Part shown: positions 5,438 through 50,080 of the stretch, piece after piece
How positions within the stretch are numbered: position 1 is the stretch's first letter
Layout of the letters: each line of letters begins with the position of its first letter
Assembly (NCBI GenBank): GCA_002172675.1
Contig: NETF01000208.1
Location: 1-64,000 of the forward strand
DNA from: an unicellular cyanobacterium SU3
GTDB lineage: Bacteria > Cyanobacteriota > Cyanobacteriia > Cyanobacteriales > Microcystaceae
Reading direction: 5' to 3'
Length of the DNA stretch: 64,000 bases
Program-made: the position numbers and the translations under genes
The notes under the pieces: generated by a model
Told to the model about the DNA's origin: nothing
Databases searched by the model: none
What the model saw: the letters and a program-made list of their open reading frames with translations, nothing else

Positions 5438-7027
5438 ATGCTTGCAGAAATGTGGTCTTTTCGTGGAAGATATAAAATTCTCCATCTGACTTGGTTTGCC
5501 TTCTTTTTATCCTTTGTGGTCTGGTTTAACCTTGCACCCTTGGCAACCCAGGTAAAAGCTGATTTTGGGCTAGAAGTTAGTCAAATTAGAACCTTAGCTA
5601 TCTGTAACGTAGCTTTAACGGTTCCTGCGCGGATTATCATTGGAATGTTATTGGACCGCTATGGGCCGAGAATTACCTATACATTGCTGTTGATATATGC
5701 AGCGATTCCCTGTTTAATCTTTGCAACAGCACAAAGCTTTACCCAGTTAGTGATTGGACGGTTAATGTTAGGTATCGTCGGTGCCGGCTTTGTCATTGGT
5801 ATTCGCATGGTTGCAGAATGGTTCCCCCCCAAAGAAATAGGACTCGCTGAAGGTATTTATGGCGGTTGGGGGAACTTTGGGTCGGCGGCCGCTGCTTTTA
5901 CCCTGCCTACCATCGGCGGATGGTTCGCTTTTGGCGCAGTTTCCCCCGCAGGTGATCCCCTCCTCAATTGGCGACTTTGTATCGCTGGAACAGGCATTAT
6001 TGCTGCGCTGTATGGACTTTTATACTACAATAACGTTCAGGATCATCCCCCAGGAAAAGTCTACCGTAAGCCTAAAAGTGCCAGAGGGATTGAAGTCACT
6101 ACGAAAAAAGATTTTTGGTTCTTAATGGTGATGAATGCACCGTTATCCGGCATTCTCATGGTATTAGCTTGGCGGTTAAACCGTATTGGTTTCTACGGTA
6201 ATAATGCGATGTATATTGTTTGGGCTTGTTTATTGGGCTTATATCTTTTCCAAGCTTATAACTGTTGGGTGGTGAATAAAGACTTAATGACCGGTAAGAA
6301 GCATTATCCAGCAAAAGATCGCTATCGTTTCTCTCAGGTTGCTATCTTAGAATTAACTTATGTGGTGAACTTTGGATCAGAGTTAGCGGTCGTTTCTATG
6401 CTTCCTGCGTTCTTTGAAGGGACATTTGCTTTAACACCAGCACAAGCAGGAATGATCGCCTCTAGTTACGCATTTATGAACTTAGCCTCTCGTCCAGGTG
6501 GGGGTTTAATCTCTGATAAGTTGGGTAGTCGCAAGAATACAATGGCTGTGTTAACCCTGTGTATGGGTATTGGTTATCTAATGTTGGGTAATGTAACGAG
6601 CAGTTGGTGGCTACCGGGGGCTATTTTATTAACGATGGCTTGTTCATTCTTTGTGCAAGCAGGAGAAGGATCTACTTTTGCGATCGTTCCTCTGGTAAAA
6701 CGCCGTATTACGGGGCAAGTTGCCGGTAATGTGGGGGCTTACGGGAATGTGGGTGCAGTGGCTTATTTGACCATTTTTAGCCTCCTGCCGGAATGGTTAG
6801 GAGGCGGTAATAACCCTAGTGAGGCGATTATTTCCCAAGCTAATAGTATGTTTTTCCAGATAATGGGGACGATGGCTATTATTGTTGCCTTTTTATGCTG
6901 GTTTATCCTCAGAGAACCGGAAGGATCATTTGCTGAACATCATCAAGGAGAAGAAGAGGATCGTGACTTATCCCATGTTCATGCGATAGAAAGCGATGCT
7001 TCTGTTGATTCTATTACTAGGGGTTAA
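5438..7027 (+). CDS. nrtP: Nitrate/nitrite permease, major facilitator type
   Basis: The 529-residue membrane protein has about 12 hydrophobic segments. It carries NarK/NrtP-family signatures: WFNLAPLATQVKADFGL near residue 30, a MFS loop 2-3 motif GMLLDRYGPR, and a glycine-rich nitrate signature GIVGAGFVIGIRMV in the first half. A second signature is present in the C-terminal half near GQVAGNVGAYGNVGAVAY. NrtP is the single-component nitrate/nitrite transporter found in many marine cyanobacteria in place of the ABC system NrtABCD. It follows nirA by 74 bases and has an AGAGG-type ribosome site, so it is probably in the NtcA-controlled operon. No narB (nitrate reductase) gene follows in this window. 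Confidence 0.93.
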   Translation: MLAEMWSFRGRYKILHLTWFAFFLSFVVWFNLAPLATQVKADFGLEVSQIRTLAICNVALTVPARIIIGMLLDRYGPRITYTLLLIYAAIPCLIFATAQSFTQLVIGRLMLGIVGAGFVIGIRMVAEWFPPKEIGLAEGIYGGWGNFGSAAAAFTLPTIGGWFAFGAVSPAGDPLLNWRLCIAGTGIIAALYGLLYYNNVQDHPPGKVYRKPKSARGIEVTTKKDFWFLMVMNAPLSGILMVLAWRLNRIGFYGNNAMYIVWACLLGLYLFQAYNCWVVNKDLMTGKKHYPAKDRYRFSQVAILELTYVVNFGSELAVVSMLPAFFEGTFALTPAQAGMIASSYAFMNLASRPGGGLISDKLGSRKNTMAVLTLCMGIGYLMLGNVTSSWWLPGAILLTMACSFFVQAGEGSTFAIVPLVKRRITGQVAGNVGAYGNVGAVAYLTIFSLLPEWLGGGNNPSEAIISQANSMFFQIMGTMAIIVAFLCWFILREPEGSFAEHHQGEEEDRDLSHVHAIESDASVDSITRG

Positions 7028-7654
7028 CCTACATTATTCATGGAGAAAAAATAAAACCAAAAAGATAAGAAATTGGCATCAAAAGCGATTTTTTATCTTA
7101 TGTCACCATTCATCCCTAACTTTTTCATAAGATGGGTATGAATGGCGACCAAAATATAAACCACGAAGTGTCCATATTATCGTCTTAATTCCACTATTGC
7201 TGCATTTAGCATGACATTTTTGATAAAAAAACAGTTAGTAGTGCCTTTAAGTTCAATCCTTAACAATCAAGTCATTTTCCTTTGGGGTAATGTGACTCAA
7301 TTCCTTGATTTGTCCGAAATATAGGTGACAAATCAAATAAGGATTTTCCTTTTGGCTACTAAACTAACTGCTCCACTGTTGTTCCCTAACCACCTACAAT
7401 AATGAGGCTTATTACTAGAAGATACAACCTTAGTTTAGGAACTTAAGGCAGAAGTTAAGCATTTCTCTACAAAAATAGCTGAAGCTCAGTCATAGAGAGT
7501 GTTTTGACGCTTTGGACTTTTGAGACTATTGTTGCTTAAGTTCGGATCAAGGTTGCTTAAGTTAGGATCTCAGTTAGAACGACGAGCTACAGCGTGTAAC
7601 GCAAAGCAAAAGTATAAATCATATGGATTTTACCAATTAATAATTATTAATTAA
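7028..7654. other. Gene-poor stretch, possible relic sequence
   Basis: No intact gene is visible in 627 bases. A small hairpin lies at 7307-7334 (arms GATTTGTC/GACAAATC, 12-base loop). A two-copy tandem repeat lies at 7531-7572. Around 7410-7500 the plus strand reads a short charged peptide (ELKAEVKHFSTKIAEAQ) broken by stops. It resembles the start of some transposases, but this is weak. The stretch may be decayed mobile DNA. Confidence 0.4.
7531..7572. repeat. Two-copy 21-bp tandem repeat
   Basis: GTTGCTTAAGTTCGGATCAAG is immediately followed by GTTGCTTAAGTTAGGATCTCA, with 17 of 21 positions identical. It sits in the gene-poor stretch before the convergent end of miaB. Its function is unknown; it may be a protein-binding site or an end of a decayed element. 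Confidence 0.6.
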
Positions 7655-41638: not shown

Positions 41639-42184
41639 ATGATTACTAAAAAAATCTGTCTGATTGGTGATTTTGGTGTAGGAAAAACTAGCTTAATTCG
41701 TCGTTTTGTAGAACATCAATTTAGTGAAGAATATTTATCTACTATCGGAGTCAGTATTTCTCGCAAATCAGTTACAGTCTCATCCTCTACTGAAAAACAA
41801 GCTCCTCAAATAGTACAGTTATTGATCTGGGATATTGAAGGAAAAACAAAATTTCAAGAGATTTCCTCCAGTTACTTAAAATCTGCTCAAGGGGTGATCA
41901 TCGTGGCTGATTGCAGTCGTCAAGAGACCATCGCTAATATACCCCATCATATTGATTTAGCCCGTTCAATTAATCCCAAAGAACTTACCCTCAGCATTGT
42001 TATGAATAAAATTGACCTTGTTGAAGAACATTTGCCCATCCTTTTGCTCAAACAGCATCAATTTTATAATCAGTTTCTAACCATTCCGATCTACCATACC
42101 TCTGCGAAAACAGGAAAAAATGTTGAAATCATGTTTCACCAATTAGCTCAGAATATAATGGAAAAAAGAAAAGAAAATTATTGA
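41639..42184 (+). CDS. Ras-superfamily (Rab-like) small GTPase
   Basis: The 181-residue protein has every G motif: GDFGVGKTS (10-18), Thr35 in YLSTIGV, WDIEGKT (64-70), NKIDL (123-127) and TSAK (154-157). This order and spacing are typical of Ras/Rab proteins; bacterial members include MglA and the poorly known Rup groups. The switch II motif is WDIEGK rather than WDTAGQ, so the catalytic Gln of Ras is replaced by Lys (position 69). This suggests slow intrinsic hydrolysis or need for a partner. There is no lipid-anchor cysteine at the C-terminus. It follows the OmpA-family gene by 23 bases. Confidence 0.9.
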   Translation: MITKKICLIGDFGVGKTSLIRRFVEHQFSEEYLSTIGVSISRKSVTVSSSTEKQAPQIVQLLIWDIEGKTKFQEISSSYLKSAQGVIIVADCSRQETIANIPHHIDLARSINPKELTLSIVMNKIDLVEEHLPILLLKQHQFYNQFLTIPIYHTSAKTGKNVEIMFHQLAQNIMEKRKENY

Positions 42185-42281
42185 CAAATTTAAAAGTTCA
42201 ATTAGAATAGCCTACATTCCCTTATTTTTGTTCCTTAACTCAAAAAATGCTGTTATTTGTTATACCCATTCATTTATTTAT

Positions 42282-44210
42282 ATGGCACAAGAAAACTCAA
42301 TATCGATCAACTCCCCTTTAGTTTCTGTCGAAACATTAATTACTGAACACACCAAGAAACTTGAGCAAGCTAAAAAACATTTACAACAGTTGACCATTCA
42401 CTTAGATCAATTAACCCATACTAATATTGAGCTATCAGAAGATATCCAACACTGCCAAAAATTGGACGAAGAACTAAGGATTAATGAACAAGCCTTACAG
42501 CTTAATCAAAAACGACTTCACAGTATTCTCGGCTCTATTGATGATGTGGTATGGTCAATTGTTCCCCAAACCAGCCAAATTCTTTATCTTAATCATGCAA
42601 CCGAGACAGTTTATGGCCGTCCCATTGCAGACTTTCTAGATAACTTAAATTTATGGCAAGAAATTATCTATCCAGATGATCAACAACGAGTGGAAGAGTC
42701 GCAACAACTCCTATATAAAACAGGAATACAAGATATTGAATATCGTATTCTTTGGCCCAATGAAACCATCCATTGGATTAGGGTTCGTAGTCGTTTGATT
42801 AGAGATGACCAAGAAAACCCAATTCGTATTGATGGACTGACGACAGAAATCACCGAACATAAAAAAATTAAAGAACAACTGCGTCACGATGCTCTACATG
42901 ATAATTTAACAGGACTGCCTAATCGAAGCCTCTTGATGGATCGACTTGAACAAGGGTTGAAACGGTGTCAAAGAGATGAAAATAAACGCTTTGCTGTTCT
43001 TTTTTTGGATTTAGATGGATTTAAGCTAATCAATGATAGTTTAGGACATTTGACAGGGGATCAGCTATTAATTATCCTCAGTCATCGGTTTAATCAATGC
43101 TTGCGGGCCGAAGATACCTTATCCCGATTAGGAGGCGATGAATTTGTCATTTTGTTGGAAAATTTAGGCACTATTGATGAGGCAATAACCATTGCTGATC
43201 GCATCCATAATATCCTCAAAGAACCTATTTTGTTGCAAAACGAAGAAATTTTTATCAGTGTTAGTATTGGGATCGTTTTTGGAGGGGAAAAATCCGTATA
43301 TAATAATTCTGATCAAGTGGCTGAACTGTTACGGGATGCAGATACAGCTATGTATCGAGCCAAAGCCAAAGGGCCTGGTACTTTAGAAGTCTTTCAACCC
43401 TCAATGCATACCCATGTTGTTAAACGTTTACAAGTGGCCAATGAGTTACAAAAGGCCATTGAACGTGAAGAATTTATTGTTTATTATCAACCCATTATTT
43501 CTTTAGACAGCGATCGCATTGATGGGTTTGAAGCCTTAGTTCGTTGGCAACATCAAGAAAAAGGATTAATTCCACCGACTGATTTTATTCCCATTGCTGA
43601 AGAAACAGAAGCGATCTTAAAAATTGATAAGTGGGTTTTGCGCCATGCTTGTACTCAATTAAGTCTTTGGCAACAACAATTTCCAAACATTCAACCTTTG
43701 ACCATGAGTGTTAATCTCTCTAGTAAACATTTAACTAAACCAGATTTTATTGAAGTCTTAGATGAAATTCTAGCAGAAACGGGATTGCGAGGAACATCAT
43801 TAAAATTAGAAATTACTGAAAGTTTTTTAATGGAAAAAAGCAAAATAGTTTTTGATATTCTTGAGGAGATTAAGCAGAGGAAAATCGAACTTTGTTTAGA
43901 TGATTTTGGTACTGGATATTCTTCATTGAGTTATTTAGATTGTTTTTCTTTTAATGTTTTAAAAATTGATCGTTCTTTTATCAAAAGATTAGTGGGAGAA
44001 AACGATAAATGTGAAATGATTAAAGCGATTGTTGATTTAGCTGTCACTTTAAATATGAAAGTGGTGGCTGAAGGGGTAGAAACTAATGTACAAAAAGATA
44101 AATTAAAAGCTTTAAATTGTAGTTATGGTCAAGGATATGGCTTTTTCCCTCCTTTGGATAGTCAAACCATTAGTCGTCTCTTAGAACAACAAAATATAAG
44201 TATTAGTTAA
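42282..44210 (+). CDS. PAS-GGDEF-EAL signalling protein
   Basis: The 642-residue protein starts at ATG 42282; a TTG at 42228 would add 18 residues. An N-terminal coiled coil (about 15-75) leads to a PAS domain (about 80-205, with a GIQDIEYRILWPNETIHWI PAC part). The GGDEF domain has an intact GGDEF near 284 and the EAL domain has EAL near 416, with TESFLMEK, LDDFGTGYSSLSYL, LKIDRSFI and AEGVET all present. Both cyclase and phosphodiesterase activities are possible. It follows the Ras-like GTPase gene by about 100 bases on the same strand, so a link to that cassette is possible. Confidence 0.9.
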   Translation: MAQENSISINSPLVSVETLITEHTKKLEQAKKHLQQLTIHLDQLTHTNIELSEDIQHCQKLDEELRINEQALQLNQKRLHSILGSIDDVVWSIVPQTSQILYLNHATETVYGRPIADFLDNLNLWQEIIYPDDQQRVEESQQLLYKTGIQDIEYRILWPNETIHWIRVRSRLIRDDQENPIRIDGLTTEITEHKKIKEQLRHDALHDNLTGLPNRSLLMDRLEQGLKRCQRDENKRFAVLFLDLDGFKLINDSLGHLTGDQLLIILSHRFNQCLRAEDTLSRLGGDEFVILLENLGTIDEAITIADRIHNILKEPILLQNEEIFISVSIGIVFGGEKSVYNNSDQVAELLRDADTAMYRAKAKGPGTLEVFQPSMHTHVVKRLQVANELQKAIEREEFIVYYQPIISLDSDRIDGFEALVRWQHQEKGLIPPTDFIPIAEETEAILKIDKWVLRHACTQLSLWQQQFPNIQPLTMSVNLSSKHLTKPDFIEVLDEILAETGLRGTSLKLEITESFLMEKSKIVFDILEEIKQRKIELCLDDFGTGYSSLSYLDCFSFNVLKIDRSFIKRLVGENDKCEMIKAIVDLAVTLNMKVVAEGVETNVQKDKLKALNCSYGQGYGFFPPLDSQTISRLLEQQNISIS

Positions 44211-45048: not shown

Positions 45049-45933
45049 ATGCCCAACGATACTTGTCATGTTTTATTAATAGAAGATAAATTAGAGAATA
45101 TTGAGTTATTACAAAATTTATTATCTCAAGGCCAATTTAGCTCTCTAGCTAAAGGTTTGACTTTTCCGATTACTTCTACTACTACTTTAAATGATAGTTT
45201 AAAATTCTTAGAAGCTCATAAATTTGATGTAATTTTACTCGACTTGGATTTACCCGATAGTCAAGGGTTAGATACGTTAATTAAGGTAAAAGAAAAAGCC
45301 ATCAATATTCCTATTATTGTAGAAATGGATGGAAAAAGCGAAGGAAGAGTTGTGGAGTCTTTTCAATTAGGTGCCGATGGCTATTTAGAAATTAAAAGTA
45401 TCGATAGTAATCTGTTAATCCATGAAATTCGCTTAAGTATTGAACGGCAAAAATATCGAGCTAAAATTAACAAAAGACAAGAAGAAATACGCCAAGCACA
45501 AGAGTTTGCTGATTTAGATGATCTCATTAAATCCAGTCGTGAAACCAGTGTCACAGCTAGACTATTTGGGGCTTATCCCCTAAAAGAAAGCTTACCCGAT
45601 GTCTTTGACGAATTGACAGAAGCCTATGGTAAGTTATTAGAATTATCTTTAGAACAACGAATGTTTAAAGTAGACTATAATATTTCTGAGCAACTACGAA
45701 CCTTAGGAGATAAATTAGGGTTTCTTAAAGCAAGTCCTAGAGATGCTATTGAAATTCACACTAAAGTTTTAAAAGAAAAAAGCAAAGATGTTCCTGTGGT
45801 TAAAGCTCAAGCGTATGTTGCCGAAGGAAGATTAATGATTTTAGAATTAATGGGGTATTTAGCTTCATTTTATCGTAAATATTATATCGGCCTGAGTAAT
45901 ATTAACCTATCGGCTAGAAAACATTACCCATAA
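45049..45933 (+). CDS. kaiA3: Non-standard KaiA: receiver domain fused to KaiA C-terminal domain (KaiA3-like)
   Basis: The 294-residue protein has two parts. Residues 6-130 are a response-regulator receiver (HVLLIEDKLEN, acceptor-type Asp65 in VILLDLDLPD, then IPIIVEMDG). The conserved Thr/Ser after the fourth strand is changed, so signalling may be unusual. Residues 175-290 resemble the KaiA dimer domain: DAIEIHTKVLKEKSK aligns with the KaiA segment having EIH, and EGRLMILELMGYLASFYRK aligns with its last helix. This chimera matches KaiA3 (Sll0485) of Synechocystis PCC 6803, described as supporting KaiC3 phosphorylation. kaiB follows after 5 bases and kaiC 80 bases later. A simple response regulator is the alternative, but context argues against it. 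Confidence 0.8.
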   Translation: MPNDTCHVLLIEDKLENIELLQNLLSQGQFSSLAKGLTFPITSTTTLNDSLKFLEAHKFDVILLDLDLPDSQGLDTLIKVKEKAINIPIIVEMDGKSEGRVVESFQLGADGYLEIKSIDSNLLIHEIRLSIERQKYRAKINKRQEEIRQAQEFADLDDLIKSSRETSVTARLFGAYPLKESLPDVFDELTEAYGKLLELSLEQRMFKVDYNISEQLRTLGDKLGFLKASPRDAIEIHTKVLKEKSKDVPVVKAQAYVAEGRLMILELMGYLASFYRKYYIGLSNINLSARKHYP

Positions 45934-45938
45934 ATTGT

Positions 45939-46223
45939 ATGAACAAATATCTACTCAAGCTATATATTACAGGGAATACAGCCAATTCTCAAAGGGCGAT
46001 CGCGAATCTATTTCGTATCTGTCATGAAGAGTTGCAAGATAAATATACTGTAGAAATTATTGATGTTCTCGAACAACCGCAACAGGCCGAAAAAGAAAAA
46101 ATTTTAGTTACACCTACCCTGATCAAAAAGTTACCTCCACCCCTACAACGGATTATCGGAGATATGTCCAACACTCAAAAAGTTCTCCTAGGGTTAGATT
46201 TAGTGTCCCAAGATAAAAATTAA
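45939..46223 (+). CDS. kaiB3: Circadian clock protein KaiB (KaiB3-like)
   Basis: The 94-residue thioredoxin-like, fold-switching protein has LKLYITGNTANSQRAIANL near the start, IIDVLEQPQQAEKEKILVTP in the middle (about 41-60), and IGDMSNTQKVLLGLDL near the end, as in KaiB. The acidic tail of clock-type KaiB1 is short here. KaiB binds KaiC in its phosphorylated state and sequesters KaiA. It starts 5 bases after the KaiA3-like gene, so co-translation is likely. Assignment to the B3 subgroup comes from its partners, not from the KaiB sequence alone. Confidence 0.88.
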   Translation: MNKYLLKLYITGNTANSQRAIANLFRICHEELQDKYTVEIIDVLEQPQQAEKEKILVTPTLIKKLPPPLQRIIGDMSNTQKVLLGLDLVSQDKN

Positions 46224-46303
46224 CAAAGATTTCTTGGCAATAGGAAAAGAAACAGGCAAAATAAACAATGAACCATTAACCCTCTATTCCCTAAAAAATA
46301 CGG

Positions 46304-47818
46304 ATGACTCAAGAGAACGAACTAGATTATATTGAGAAAATAGAAACTGCCATTCCAGGGTTTGATTTTTTGTCTGAAGGAGGACTTCCCAAAGGACGGG
46401 CTACATTAGTCGCTGGAACTGCCGGAAGTTCCAAAACGGTTTTTGCTTGTCAATTTTTAGCCGAAGGAATTAAACGAGGGGAAAATGGCGTTTTTATTAC
46501 CTTTGAAGAACCCCCCAAAGCCTTACGACGGAATATGCGAGGGTTTGGCTGGAATATTGCTCAATGGGAACTAGAAAGAAAATGGGCGTTTGTGGATGCG
46601 TCTCCCCAACCCGGCGAACCGATGATGGTGACAGGAGACTACGATCTCGGTGCTTTGATCGCCCGCGTTGAATTCGCTATCCGTAAGTATAACGCCCAAC
46701 GGGTTTCTATGGACTCTTTAGGGGCGATTTTTAGTCACTTAAGCGATAGCGCACAAGTGAGAAGCGATCTCTTCCGTTTGGCCTCAGCCTTACGGGAGTT
46801 AGGAGTCACCGCCATTATGACGGCAGAAAGAACAAAAGAATATGGAGGAATTAGTCGGTTTGGAGTCGAGGAATTTGTAGCCGATAATGTGGTCATTTTA
46901 CGCAACGTTTTAGCCGACGAAAAACGTCGCCGTACCATTGAAATTTTGAAATATCGCGGAACGGATCACCAAAAAGGAGAATATCCTTTTACCATCATTC
47001 CAGGTCGTGGGGTGGTCATTATTCCTTTATCGGCTATTGTATTAGAACAAAAATCCTCTAACATTCGCATCACTTCTGGTAGTTACGAACTAGATAGAAT
47101 GTGTGGGGGTGGATTTTTCCGAGATTCGATCATTTTAGTCTCTGGGGCAACTGGAACGGGAAAAACCCTCATGGTGACGGAATTTATGGCGGGTGGAGTG
47201 GTTAATGACGAACGATGTTTGATTTTTGCCTTTGAAGAAAGCAGAGAACAACTCTTTCGCAATGCCACCGGTTGGGGGGTAGATTTTCGCGAAATGGAAA
47301 AACAAGGTAAGTTAAAAGTAGTCTGTCGTTATCCAGAAACCACAGGGTTAGAAAATCATCTAATCAATATGAAAGAAACCATCGAAACCTTTAAACCCAA
47401 CCGAGTGGCGGTTGATAGTTTATCGGCGTTAGAACGGGTTTCTACTCTAAAGGGATTTCGAGAGTTTATTATTGGTTTAACTTCTTTTATTAAACAGCAA
47501 GAAATTGGCGGTTTATTTACTTCTACGACCCCCACTTTATTAGGAGGATCATCCATTACAGAAGCACATATTTCTACCATTACCGATTCTATTATTTTAC
47601 TGCGTTACGTCGAAATGTATGGAGAAATGCGTCGCGGTATCACTGTCTTAAAAATGCGCGGTTCAATGCACGATAAAGATATTCGAGAATTTTCTATTGA
47701 TAATGAAGGAATGCACATCGGTAAACCCTTTCGTAATGTAACCGGTATTTTATCCGGTTCGCCGATGTATACAGCACAAAACGAAGTAGAAAGATTAAGT
47801 AATTTGTTTGAAGAGTAA
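46304..47818 (+). CDS. kaiC3: Circadian clock ATPase/kinase KaiC (KaiC3-like)
   Basis: The 504-residue protein has two RecA-like halves. CI has P-loop GTAGSSKT, with Ser in place of the usual Gly before Lys, and catalytic TFEEPP. CII has an orthodox GATGTGKT and FAFEES. The autophosphorylation pair is present as Ser424/Thr425 in EAHISTITD, with Thr419 equivalent to T426 of Synechococcus KaiC. CI is often described as using REKR-type contacts; here MTAERTKEYG and ADEKRRRTIE are visible. The C-terminal tail is short (ends SNLFEE), about 15 residues less than KaiC1, which may change KaiA binding. Similarity of style points to KaiC3. Confidence 0.92.
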   Translation: MTQENELDYIEKIETAIPGFDFLSEGGLPKGRATLVAGTAGSSKTVFACQFLAEGIKRGENGVFITFEEPPKALRRNMRGFGWNIAQWELERKWAFVDASPQPGEPMMVTGDYDLGALIARVEFAIRKYNAQRVSMDSLGAIFSHLSDSAQVRSDLFRLASALRELGVTAIMTAERTKEYGGISRFGVEEFVADNVVILRNVLADEKRRRTIEILKYRGTDHQKGEYPFTIIPGRGVVIIPLSAIVLEQKSSNIRITSGSYELDRMCGGGFFRDSIILVSGATGTGKTLMVTEFMAGGVVNDERCLIFAFEESREQLFRNATGWGVDFREMEKQGKLKVVCRYPETTGLENHLINMKETIETFKPNRVAVDSLSALERVSTLKGFREFIIGLTSFIKQQEIGGLFTSTTPTLLGGSSITEAHISTITDSIILLRYVEMYGEMRRGITVLKMRGSMHDKDIREFSIDNEGMHIGKPFRNVTGILSGSPMYTAQNEVERLSNLFEE

Positions 47819-47880
47819 GAGTAGATTAAGACATGACAAACAGTTGAAACCTTTGTGAATTCTACTTTTGCCTTTTGCCT

Positions 47881-47930
47881 GTCTTGGTGAGCTACCCAGT
47901 GCGTCTTACGAAGAGGGGGGGTCTCACCGC
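47881..47930 (+). repeat. Dispersed palindromic repeat, copy 3, flanked by 16-bp direct repeats
   Basis: GTCTTGGTGAGCTACCC through GGGGGGTCTCACCGC matches the ends of copies 1 and 2 in shortened form. On both sides stands the same 16-bp sequence CTTTTGCCTTTTGCCT (47865-47880 and 47930-47945). This looks like an insertion into that tract, or one that copied it. The rest of 47819-48053 has no gene. Confidence 0.65.
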
Positions 47931-48053
47931 TTTTGCCTTTTGCCTATCTTCACTCGCTAATTTTATCAAAGGTGCAAGATTATGAGTGTTCCCTTTCTCA
48001 AAAGGCGTTATCCTAAATAGTAAAGATGACGGTTAAGTGTAAGTGACCACCCT

Positions 48054-49238
48054 ATGTCAAAAATAGAAACTAGAACCGAACCCATGGTGTTGAACATGGG
48101 GCCTCATCATCCCTCAATGCACGGGGTATTGCGTTTGATCGTCACTTTAGACGGAGAAGACGTAGTAGACTGTGAACCTGTGATCGGGTATCTTCATCGA
48201 GGGATGGAGAAAATTGCGGAAAATCGCACTAATATCATGTACGTTCCCTATGTGAGTCGTTGGGATTATGCGGCCGGAATGTTTAATGAAGCGATTACTG
48301 TTAACGCCCCTGAACAATTAGCGGATATTGAAGTTCCCAAACGCGCCCAATATATTCGGGTGATTATGTTGGAACTCAACCGCATTGCTAACCATTTACT
48401 GTGGTTAGGCCCCTTTTTAGCAGACGTTGGCGCACAAACTCCCTTTTTCTACATTTTCCGTGAACGGGAAATGATTTACGATCTTTGGGAAGCTGCCTCT
48501 GGAATGCGTTTAATTAATAATAACTACTTCCGTGTTGGTGGGGTAGCGGTAGATTTACCCTACGGTTGGATCGATAAATGTGAGGACTTCTGTGATGCGT
48601 TTGACCCCAAAGTAGATGAATACGAGAAGTTAATCACCAATAACCCCATTTTCCGCCGTCGTGTTGAAGGGGTAGGAACTATTACCCGCGACGAAGCCAT
48701 TAACTGGGGACTCTCTGGCCCAATGTTACGGGGTTCTGGGGTTAAATGGGATCTGCGTAAAGTAGACCATTATGAATGTTATGATGACTTCGACTGGGAA
48801 GTACAATGGGAAACCGCAGGAGACTGTTTTGCCCGTTATCTCGTTCGTATTCGGGAAATGCGCGAATCAGTTAAAATCATTCGTCAGGCGTTAAAAGGTA
48901 TTCCAGGGGGTCCCTATGAAAACCTCGAAGCGAAACGCATGATGGAAGGGAAAAAGTCTGAATGGAATGATTTTGAGTATCAATATATTGCCAAAAAAGT
49001 CGCCCCTACTTTTAAAATTCCTGAAGGTGAACATTATGTTCGCATGGAAAGTGGAAAAGGAGAATTAGGGATCTTTATTGTGGGTAATAATGATGTCTTC
49101 CCCTGGCGTTGGAAAATTCGCGCTCCTGACTTTAATAATTTACAAATTCTGCCCCATCTCCTTAAAGGAGTTAAGGTTGCTGATATTATGGCAATTTTGG
49201 GTAGTATCGATATTATTATGGGTTCGGTTGACCGTTAA
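48054..49238 (+). CDS. ndhH: NAD(P)H-quinone oxidoreductase subunit H (NDH-1)
   Basis: The 394-residue protein is the 49-kDa-type subunit of the thylakoid NDH-1 complex (respiration, cyclic electron flow, CO2 uptake). Marks include [18 protein letters not shown] near 13-30, [15 protein letters not shown] near 45, [18 protein letters not shown] near 102, and [14 protein letters not shown] at the C-terminus. As in other photosynthetic forms the nickel-ligand cysteines of hydrogenases are absent. A strong terminator follows at 49269. ndhH is unlinked to other ndh genes here. Confidence 0.97.
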
Positions 49239-49268
49239 AGGTTTTCTATCCATAAGTATTAATTTTTT

Positions 49269-49295
49269 GAGGGGTTTTATCCCCTCTCTTTTTTT
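49269..49295 (+). terminator. Rho-independent terminator of ndhH
   Basis: GAGGGG, a 6-base loop and CCCCTC form a stem, followed by TC and a run of seven T, 31 bases after the ndhH stop. This separates ndhH from the coiled-coil gene at 49336. Confidence 0.82.
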
Positions 49296-49335
49296 ACAAT
49301 ACAATAAAAGAAATATTATTTTAACAGTTAAATTC

Positions 49336-49737
49336 ATGAATGAACCAGTGACAGTTAAATACTCTTTAGAAGATATCCTCAAAAAGATCGATGATAAACT
49401 CGATAGAATGGAAGAAGCTTCTACTAAACGATTTGAAAAGTTGGAGTCCAAGTTAGAGAGTAACCAAAGAGACTTTGAGCAGAAATTAGATACTCTTCAA
49501 ACAGATGTTAATCAGAAATTAGATAGTTTCCAGAGAGATGTTAATCAGAAATTAGATACTCTCCAAAAAGATGTTACAGATTTAAAAGTAGGACAAGCAA
49601 AATTAGAAGAAAAAGTGGAAGGTTTAACCAAACGATTAGATTATCAAGAGTTTATTAATCGTGGAGTTATCATCGGTTTACTTGTTGCTTTGTTAGGAGG
49701 TTTGGCTAAAATGTTCGGGTTGATTGGCAATCCCTAA
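49336..49737 (+). CDS. Coiled-coil membrane-anchored protein, copy A
   Basis: The 133-residue product starts at ATG 49336; the open frame runs further back into ndhH, but that part is a shadow. Residues 10-110 are coiled coil with three 11-residue repeats of the type QKLDTLQTDVN, QKLDSFQRDVN, QKLDTLQKDVT. One membrane segment follows near the C-terminus (RGVIIGLLVALLGGLAKMFG). Copy B 40 bases downstream shares the start MNEPVTVKYSLEDILKKI and the tail but lacks the 11-residue repeats. The function is unknown; similar small proteins are common in cyanobacteria and plasmid or toxin regions. Confidence 0.72.
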   Translation: MNEPVTVKYSLEDILKKIDDKLDRMEEASTKRFEKLESKLESNQRDFEQKLDTLQTDVNQKLDSFQRDVNQKLDTLQKDVTDLKVGQAKLEEKVEGLTKRLDYQEFINRGVIIGLLVALLGGLAKMFGLIGNP

Positions 49738-49777: not shown

Positions 49778-50080
49778 ATGAATGAACCAGTAACAGTTAA
49801 ATACTCTTTAGAAGATATCCTCAAAAAGATCGATAATAAACTCGATAAAATAGAAGAAGCTTCTATTAAAAGATTTGAAAAAATAGAATCTAAGTTAGAT
49901 ACTATTCAAAAAGATATTACTGATTTAAAAGTAGGACAAGCAAGATTAGAAGAAAAAGTCGATGGGTTAGGAAAGAGATTCGATTATCAAGAGTTTATTA
50001 ATCGTGGGGTAGTTATTGGTTTAATTGTTGCTTTGTTAGGAGGTTTAGCTAAAATGTTCGGCTTGATTGGTAATCCTTAG
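49778..50080 (+). CDS. Coiled-coil membrane-anchored protein, copy B
   Basis: The 100-residue tandem paralogue of the previous gene has the same opening MNEPVTVKYSLEDILKKIDN, a single heptad block (RFEKIESKLDTIQKDITDLK) and the same C-terminal membrane segment (RGVVIGLIVALLGGLAKMFG). A GATAGGAG ribosome site precedes the ATG. The two copies differ by about 33 residues because copy A holds extra 11-residue repeats. It converges on the dead restriction gene. The function is unknown. Confidence 0.7.
   Translation: MNEPVTVKYSLEDILKKIDNKLDKIEEASIKRFEKIESKLDTIQKDITDLKVGQARLEEKVDGLGKRFDYQEFINRGVVIGLIVALLGGLAKMFGLIGNP

Follow-up and report, generated by a model that had tools for sequence, protein, structure and literature searches.

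Can a histidine kinase set the pace of a second cyanobacterial clock through the receiver domain of its KaiA protein? The question is raised by a kaiA3-kaiB3-kaiC3 gene cluster located at positions 45049-47818 of a 64,000-nucleotide stretch of contig NETF01000208.1 (hereafter the window) of the unicellular cyanobacterium SU3 (assembly GCA_002172675.1). The cluster is made of three open reading frames (ORFs) lying on one strand, with kaiA3 directly upstream of kaiB3 (5-base gap) and an 80-base gap before kaiC3. The host genome (5.6 Mb in 208 contigs) contains a single further clear kaiC gene (56% identity), which is preceded by canonical kaiA and kaiB genes, this kaiA1B1C1 cluster being on a different contig. 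We consider it likely that, in this Crocosphaera/Cyanothece-type cyanobacterium, KaiA3, KaiB3 and KaiC3 form a second oscillator beside the canonical clock, in which the receiver of KaiA3 works as a pseudoreceiver and not as a phosphorelay input.

The chimeric KaiA3 protein (Sll0485) was named, and its D65 residue noted, by Kobler et al. 2024, whose main text proposes a histidine kinase as the KaiA3 input (PMC11372060). A passage of a 2026 review (PMC13421787) terms the receiver of PCC 6803 KaiA3 genuine and restates this proposal. In both publications the case for such a kinase rests on the conservation of Asp65; neither "lysine" nor "threonine" occurs as a word in the main text of the 2024 paper.

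The active site of the KaiA3 receiver

The N-terminal part of the window KaiA3 matches the Pfam Response_reg family (PF00072, residues 8-127, E 2.1e-13). In the alignment with a canonical receiver from its own genome, which reads D, D, D, T and K at the active-site positions, it reads E12, D13, D65, M93 and I115. The full phospho-site set, i.e., two acids, the phospho-acceptor Asp, a switch Thr/Ser and the beta-5 Lys, is incomplete in this EDDMI arrangement, which lacks both the Thr/Ser and the Lys. The original prediction had already noticed that Asp65 is present and its Thr/Ser partner changed, and it was right on both points: D65 aligns with the phospho-acceptor Asp, and Met93 occupies the Thr/Ser position. 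The replacement of the beta-5 Lys, by Ile115, is an addition to it.

The residue census relied on a scan of genome contigs, from which 80 of the 87 confirmed KaiA3 loci were kept, and on genome searches; eight identical copies, and the loci without a full-length receiver-type protein inside the length bounds, were set aside. A near-full-length KaiA3 match was found in 10 of the 291 genomes of the class (genome search; list judged by reading), and KaiA3 occurs in 35 of the 50 genomes of the window's family. Read on the ungapped motif, the beta-5 Lys is present in 0/35 of these family members, 18 of which have D65, the others having Ser (11), Asn (5) or Gly (1) at this position. The seven nearest relatives of the window KaiA3 in the contig scan, at 74-87% identity, are Crocosphaera and Cyanothece records. 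A shift of the Lys by one residue was considered and rejected, the G-A-x-G-Y-L-x-[K]-x-x-L/I-D motif being ungapped with its D at position 12 in 35/35 rows; intact relatives carry the Lys at motif position 8, and the following position is a Lys in just 16 of the 35 family rows.

In a tree of 64 receiver-bearing KaiA3, from which the five active-site columns had been removed, 22 rows from Crocosphaera, Cyanothece, Synechocystis, Microcystis, Chlorogloea, Hydrococcus and one unicellular isolate form a clade (bootstrap 96; SH-like approximate likelihood-ratio test, SH-aLRT, 97), where the beta-5 Lys is missing in 22/22 and the Asp kept in 12/22. Outside this clade, the Lys is kept in 35/42 rows and the site was counted as complete in 28/42 (including L014, in spite of an Ala at its first acid). 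The proteins with an unrelated or different N-terminus (L093, L096, L099, L104, L105, L106 and L109-L112) were excluded from this tree, and L080, though labelled cyanobacterial, branches with Competibacter. Parsimony on the tree gives five changes for the Lys, six for the Asp and five for the Thr/Ser. The control receivers of other cyanobacterial proteins, which the KaiA3 search had matched and which were given loci, read EDDTK in 20/20 cases. As a passage of PMC4395418 states that the beta-5 Lys is "invariant" in typical receivers, and that a basic residue is found there in about 70% of the Asp-less ones, the loss of the Lys with retention of the Asp is unusual.

The ratio of nonsynonymous to synonymous substitution rates (dN/dS) ranges from 0.08 to 0.22 for the receiver and from 0.06 to 0.12 for the C-domain (six Crocosphaera/Cyanothece genes, 15 pairs), as estimated by a simple counting method with several pairs close to saturation. 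The N-domain is therefore retained under purifying selection, with no free decay. Such selection, together with the loss of the Thr/Ser and the Lys, fits a pseudoreceiver, and we infer from these residues that switching has been lost in the window KaiA3. The tree suggests that the beta-5 Lys would have disappeared first in the lineage, followed by the switch Thr/Ser in Crocosphaera. The role of the resulting pseudoreceiver would be structural or ligand-sensing, as for the pseudo-receiver (PsR) domain of canonical KaiA.

The window KaiA3 resembles the canonical KaiA of the Synechococcus elongatus type by its C-domain fold and by an N-domain that is receiver-like but has an incomplete phospho-site; it differs from it by keeping D65. 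Alternatively, the N-domain may have turned into a sensor of quinones or of the redox state, in the manner of the PsR domain, which binds oxidised quinones according to the main text of PMC11372060. The common fold class, the degenerate phospho-site and the retained purifying selection are in line with such a sensor, but the Pfam scan (E up to 0.001) found no KaiA_N match to the window protein, and we regard this explanation as rather doubtful.

Identity of the kai locus

The identity of the locus as KaiA3B3C3 is supported by the KaiC3 clade and by the fold of the KaiA C-domain. In a quick maximum-likelihood tree (LG+G4) of 78 proteins, the window KaiC groups with 60 KaiC proteins of kaiA3 clusters and with four lone KaiC3 from genomes of Synechocystis and Microcystis (SH-aLRT 98), apart from KaiC1 (95) and KaiC2 (100); it is thus a KaiC3, as had been proposed. 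It possesses the Ser-Thr pair of the HIST motif, which has a phosphosite role in KaiC according to a passage of PMC5520375.

The C-terminal half of the window KaiA3 was predicted to be KaiA-like, a claim that was upheld by the fold and weakly by sequence profiles. The PF07688 family gave an E-value of 0.0083 and 16.7 bits, under its cut-off of 22.2; both PF07688 and PF21714 were strong on the canonical KaiA of the same genome, whereas the window KaiA3 was not above the cut-off. The hhalign comparisons of the C-domain with canonical KaiA were collinear, with E-values of 0.047 and 0.016 and probabilities of 1.1 and 2.8%. A first profile search of the PDB with the C-domain found no KaiA; a deeper one returned three KaiA sequences among 11 matches (E 0.55-0.75), the best match being an unrelated protein (E 0.041). 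By contrast with these profiles, among the 14 top-ranking PDB matches of the AlphaFold2 (AF2) model of the C-domain, 11 are KaiA chains (Foldseek probability 0.92-1.00), with E-values of 0.06-0.69, none of which reaches 0.001. The model of the full-length KaiA3 matched receivers in the PDB, and receivers only among the 50 matches listed. The model of the C-domain supports the proposal that the C-half adopts the KaiA C-domain fold.

The description of a complete kaiA3-kaiB3-kaiC3-type cluster with a chimeric KaiA was confirmed with regard to its ORFs, gaps, receiver, KaiB and KaiC domains, Asp65, and the EIH segment and YRK helix, both of which are found in the window KaiA3. The contiguity of the three genes, which had been presented as remarkable, is not unusual: kaiA3B3 is usually extended by kaiC3, with Synechocystis and one Microcystis as exceptions according to the main text of PMC11372060, and kaiC3 is adjacent in 18 of the 35 KaiA3 loci of the window's family (judged on 1.5 kb flanks).

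As in the window, Synechocystis PCC 6803 has a chimeric KaiA3 (receiver and KaiA-type domain, with D65) whose gene adjoins kaiB3, a KaiC of the same clade, and a canonical kaiA1B1C1 cluster in the same genome. The beta-5 Lys is likewise absent in 5/5 genomes of the Synechocystis genus, among which PCC 6803 is likely included. The window differs from Synechocystis by the contiguity of its kaiC3 and by the loss of the switch residue (Met93), which is a Thr or Ser in the five rows of this genus.

The Synechocystis KaiA3, KaiB3 and KaiC3 proteins generate cycles of KaiC3 phosphorylation, in vitro (damped) and in cells (main text of PMC11372060). Judging from these tested orthologs, the KaiA-type C-domain of the window KaiA3 would promote KaiC3 autophosphorylation, KaiB3 would oppose it, and the three proteins would constitute a second, damped, post-translational oscillator. 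Conversely, they might form a KaiBC-type timer or stress module devoid of real oscillation, with the KaiA-like protein as an accessory regulator. In agreement with such a module are the weak sequence link between the C-domain and KaiA, and the lack of stimulation of the KaiC3 of Cyanothece PCC 7424 or Microcystis by canonical KaiA (passage of PMC5520375). Furthermore, Cyanothece ATCC 51142 has genes called kaiB2 (cce_4715) and kaiC2 (cce_4716; passage of PMC3549803), which, from their adjacent locus numbers alone, are probably orthologs of the window kaiB3 and kaiC3; in constant light, the kaiC2 transcripts are reported to show no kaiC1-like oscillation (passage of PMC4431719). However, transcripts are silent on phosphorylation, canonical KaiA differs from KaiA3, the C-domain fold matches KaiA and the Synechocystis orthologs do cycle, so that a non-oscillating module appears improbable.

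Features of the kai cluster, with window coordinates
Feature	Position	Strand	Evidence
kaiA3, chimeric KaiA (receiver-like N-domain and KaiA-type C-domain), 294 aa	45049..45933	+	
Receiver domain, residues 5-128; E12, D13, D65, M93, I115	45061..45432	+	Pfam Response_reg; alignment to same-genome canonical receiver; ungapped motif check
Asp65 codon, phospho-acceptor position, retained	45241..45243	+	
Met93 codon, switch Thr/Ser position, lost	45325..45327	+	
Ile115 codon, beta-5 Lys position, lost; Lys116 next to it, not a conserved substitute	45391..45393	+	
End of linker and KaiA-type helical C-domain, residues 148-294	45490..45930	+	AF2 model, pLDDT 87.4; Foldseek vs PDB
kaiB3, 94 aa	45939..46223	+	Pfam KaiB PF07689, E 1.8e-30; PDB KaiB matches
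kaiC3, 504 aa, two KaiC ATPase domains	46304..47818	+	Pfam KaiC, E 2e-120; NCBIfam PRK09302, E 3e-224

Upstream of the kai cluster (window 41639-44210) are a gene for a Ras-like small GTPase and a PAS-GGDEF-EAL gene, and kaiC3 is closely followed by a direct repeat of 21 bases, with 95% identity and a spacing of 65 (window 47865-47950). Further downstream, a small protein with MNEPVTVKYSLEDILKKID is encoded in two adjacent near-copies, at window 49778-50080 and at the end of the ORF 49078-49737, with the same terminal hydrophobic segment. Elsewhere in the host genome, contig C199 (locus L003) encodes a protein of 423 aa in which the KaiC ATPase domain is matched twice, followed just downstream, on the same strand, by a 379-aa ORF that looks kinase-like by eye.

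Histidine kinase genes beside kaiA3

The neighbourhood of kaiA3 was surveyed for histidine kinase genes lying upstream, on the same strand and at a distance of at most 700 bases, in the loci with a flank of 1.2 kb or more (L051, L058, L062 and L083, with less than 1.2 kb upstream, were left out). Of the 26 non-cyanobacterial loci, 16 have such a gene directly upstream of kaiA3, as compared with 0/34 cyanobacterial ones. The kinases were called from HisKA and HATPase_c by Pfam in 9/16 cases, and otherwise with a hidden Markov model built from the kinases of the surveyed loci. L089 (109-aa kinase fragment upstream), L074 (kinase 3.1 kb upstream) and L114 (kinase on the opposite strand) were scored as having none; in L073 a GGDEF gene is inserted between the kinase and kaiA3. 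In the window, no kinase gene was found within 6 kb of kaiA3.

All 16 kinase-linked loci keep the Asp, the Thr/Ser and the Lys (the second acid being an Asn in two of them), and the six non-cyanobacterial loci that have lost one of these three residues have no kinase upstream (0/6; Fisher p 0.0009, raw counts). The loci of Roseiflexus-type Chloroflexota (L067, L069, L071, L072, L084, L115), Halochromatium/Lamprobacter (L078, L085, L086) and Competibacter (L107, L108) are similar to that of the window in KaiA3 architecture and kaiA3-B-C order; they differ from it in reading EDDTK throughout and in having a histidine kinase gene directly upstream. An extension of the survey in Chromatiales and Chloroflexia yielded mainly the same loci and five new rows, of which L151 and L157 are intact with a kinase, and L146 and L161 degenerate without. 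With the five rows added, the numbers of intact loci with and without, and of lost loci with and without, a kinase are 18, 4, 1 and 8, respectively (p 0.0005). The kinase adjacency is real and repeated; its tie to the integrity of the receiver is no more than suggestive.

These data bear on the possibility of a working phosphorelay input, in which D65 would be phosphorylated by an unlinked histidine kinase that in this way sets the activity of KaiA3, as proposed for Synechocystis in the main text of PMC11372060 and again in part of PMC13421787. The conservation of E12, D13 and D65 in the window KaiA3, and the many intact KaiA3 relatives adjoining kinase genes, are consistent with it. On the other hand, the window protein has lost both the Thr/Ser and the Lys, the family has lost the Lys in 35/35 members and D65 in 17/35, and a kinase gene directly upstream is missing from all 34 cyanobacterial loci surveyed. 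We find a working phosphorelay unlikely. The histidine-kinase input put forward in the original prediction is thereby weakened: the Asp stands, while the Thr/Ser, the Lys and an upstream kinase are lacking. Judging from these sequences, the phosphorelay input is probably ancestral or foreign, and not used in the window KaiA3.

Several points weigh against the pseudoreceiver, or against the tie between kinase adjacency and receiver integrity. First, D65, E12 and D13 are kept in 8/8 rows of the window's Crocosphaera clade, which is odd for a dead site, and Lys-less receivers are sometimes still phosphorylatable. Second, in 8/34 cyanobacterial rows the Asp, the Thr/Ser and the Lys are all kept in the absence of a directly upstream kinase gene; an absent neighbour kinase is therefore no proof of an absent input, and cyanobacterial kinases are often unlinked. 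Furthermore, L056, one of these eight rows and a cyanobacterial metagenome-assembled genome (MAG) with an intact receiver, has a Pfam-confirmed HisKA-HATPase_c kinase gene 121 bases after kaiB. Third, the fifth new row, L173, is the one counter-example in the rows counted: its receiver is degenerate, and a kinase core is matched upstream (score 96; judged by eye to be a hybrid). Fourth, the counts become 18, 9, 2 and 9 (p 0.011) when the left-out receiver types L105, L106, L109, L112, L174, L180 and L181 are added (L179 has too short a flank): a directly upstream kinase is absent from L109, L112, L174, L180 and L181, which read DDDSK and were judged to be another receiver type, and present in L105 (DDDSR). 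Fifth, collapsing relatives by hand leaves 8, 4, 1 and 5, which is no longer significant (p 0.13), and there were not enough pairs for the independent-pairs test. Finally, the oscillator role in the window organism would hold by analogy only.

Input modules of KaiA3 and the origin of its receiver

The KaiA-type C-domain also occurs after PAS domains, in some cases together with a receiver, in ten loci, of which eight belong to Chloroflexota, one to a spirochaete and one to a proteobacterial MAG (L087, L088, L096, L097, L102, L104, L106, L110, L111 and L113), that is in 10/10 of the proteins scanned, which had been picked beforehand for their unusual length or absent receiver. A receiver is present as well in L088, L102 and L106, and a MEDS domain in L113. 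Nine of these ten genes are followed by kaiB and kaiC, and the tenth is at a contig or locus end. The variety of PAS and receiver domains placed before the same C-domain supports the view that the N-domain is an input module which can be exchanged.

Other clusters have an unusual layout. In L056, the kinase gene that directly follows kaiB (6286-7500) takes the place held elsewhere by kaiC3. Shortly after kaiC, L074 (7906-10098) encodes a protein of 730 aa that contains a KaiB-like stretch and weakly matches a kinase, a layout that we take to be SasA-like. In a MAG labelled Helarchaeota, an Asgard archaeon (L076 3098-9745; G703 contig C1, about 463-468 kb), the order is kinase-like, receiver, kaiA3, kaiB, kaiC, kaiB, kaiC. 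This contig looks archaeal because it carries TFIIB genes and many genes for Ras-like GTPases, the closest lying some 11 and 30 kb away from kaiA3; it may be a chimeric assembly.

With regard to its origin, the KaiA3 receiver would descend from a true response-regulator receiver, which in other phyla is probably driven by the histidine kinase of a neighbouring gene. We give about even chances to the following scenario. KaiA3 would have begun as a two-component output that regulates KaiC instead of DNA, with an exchangeable input (receiver, PAS, or both). The adjacent kinase would have been lost in cyanobacteria, and the receiver turned into a pseudoreceiver in the Crocosphaera-Synechocystis-Microcystis lineage, in a separate repeat, with intermediates still alive, of the step that led to the PsR domain of canonical KaiA.

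The KaiA3B3C3 system itself was already known; what is added here is a doubt on the phosphorelay input in the lineage studied, and candidate kinase partners elsewhere. According to the residue census, it is precisely in the lineage used to study KaiA3 that the wider active site is broken; in Chloroflexota and the purple sulfur bacteria, by contrast, relatives retain the site, often with a candidate kinase gene adjacent. The question of the input to the second cyanobacterial clock thereby becomes testable, and the census suggests the organisms in which to test it.

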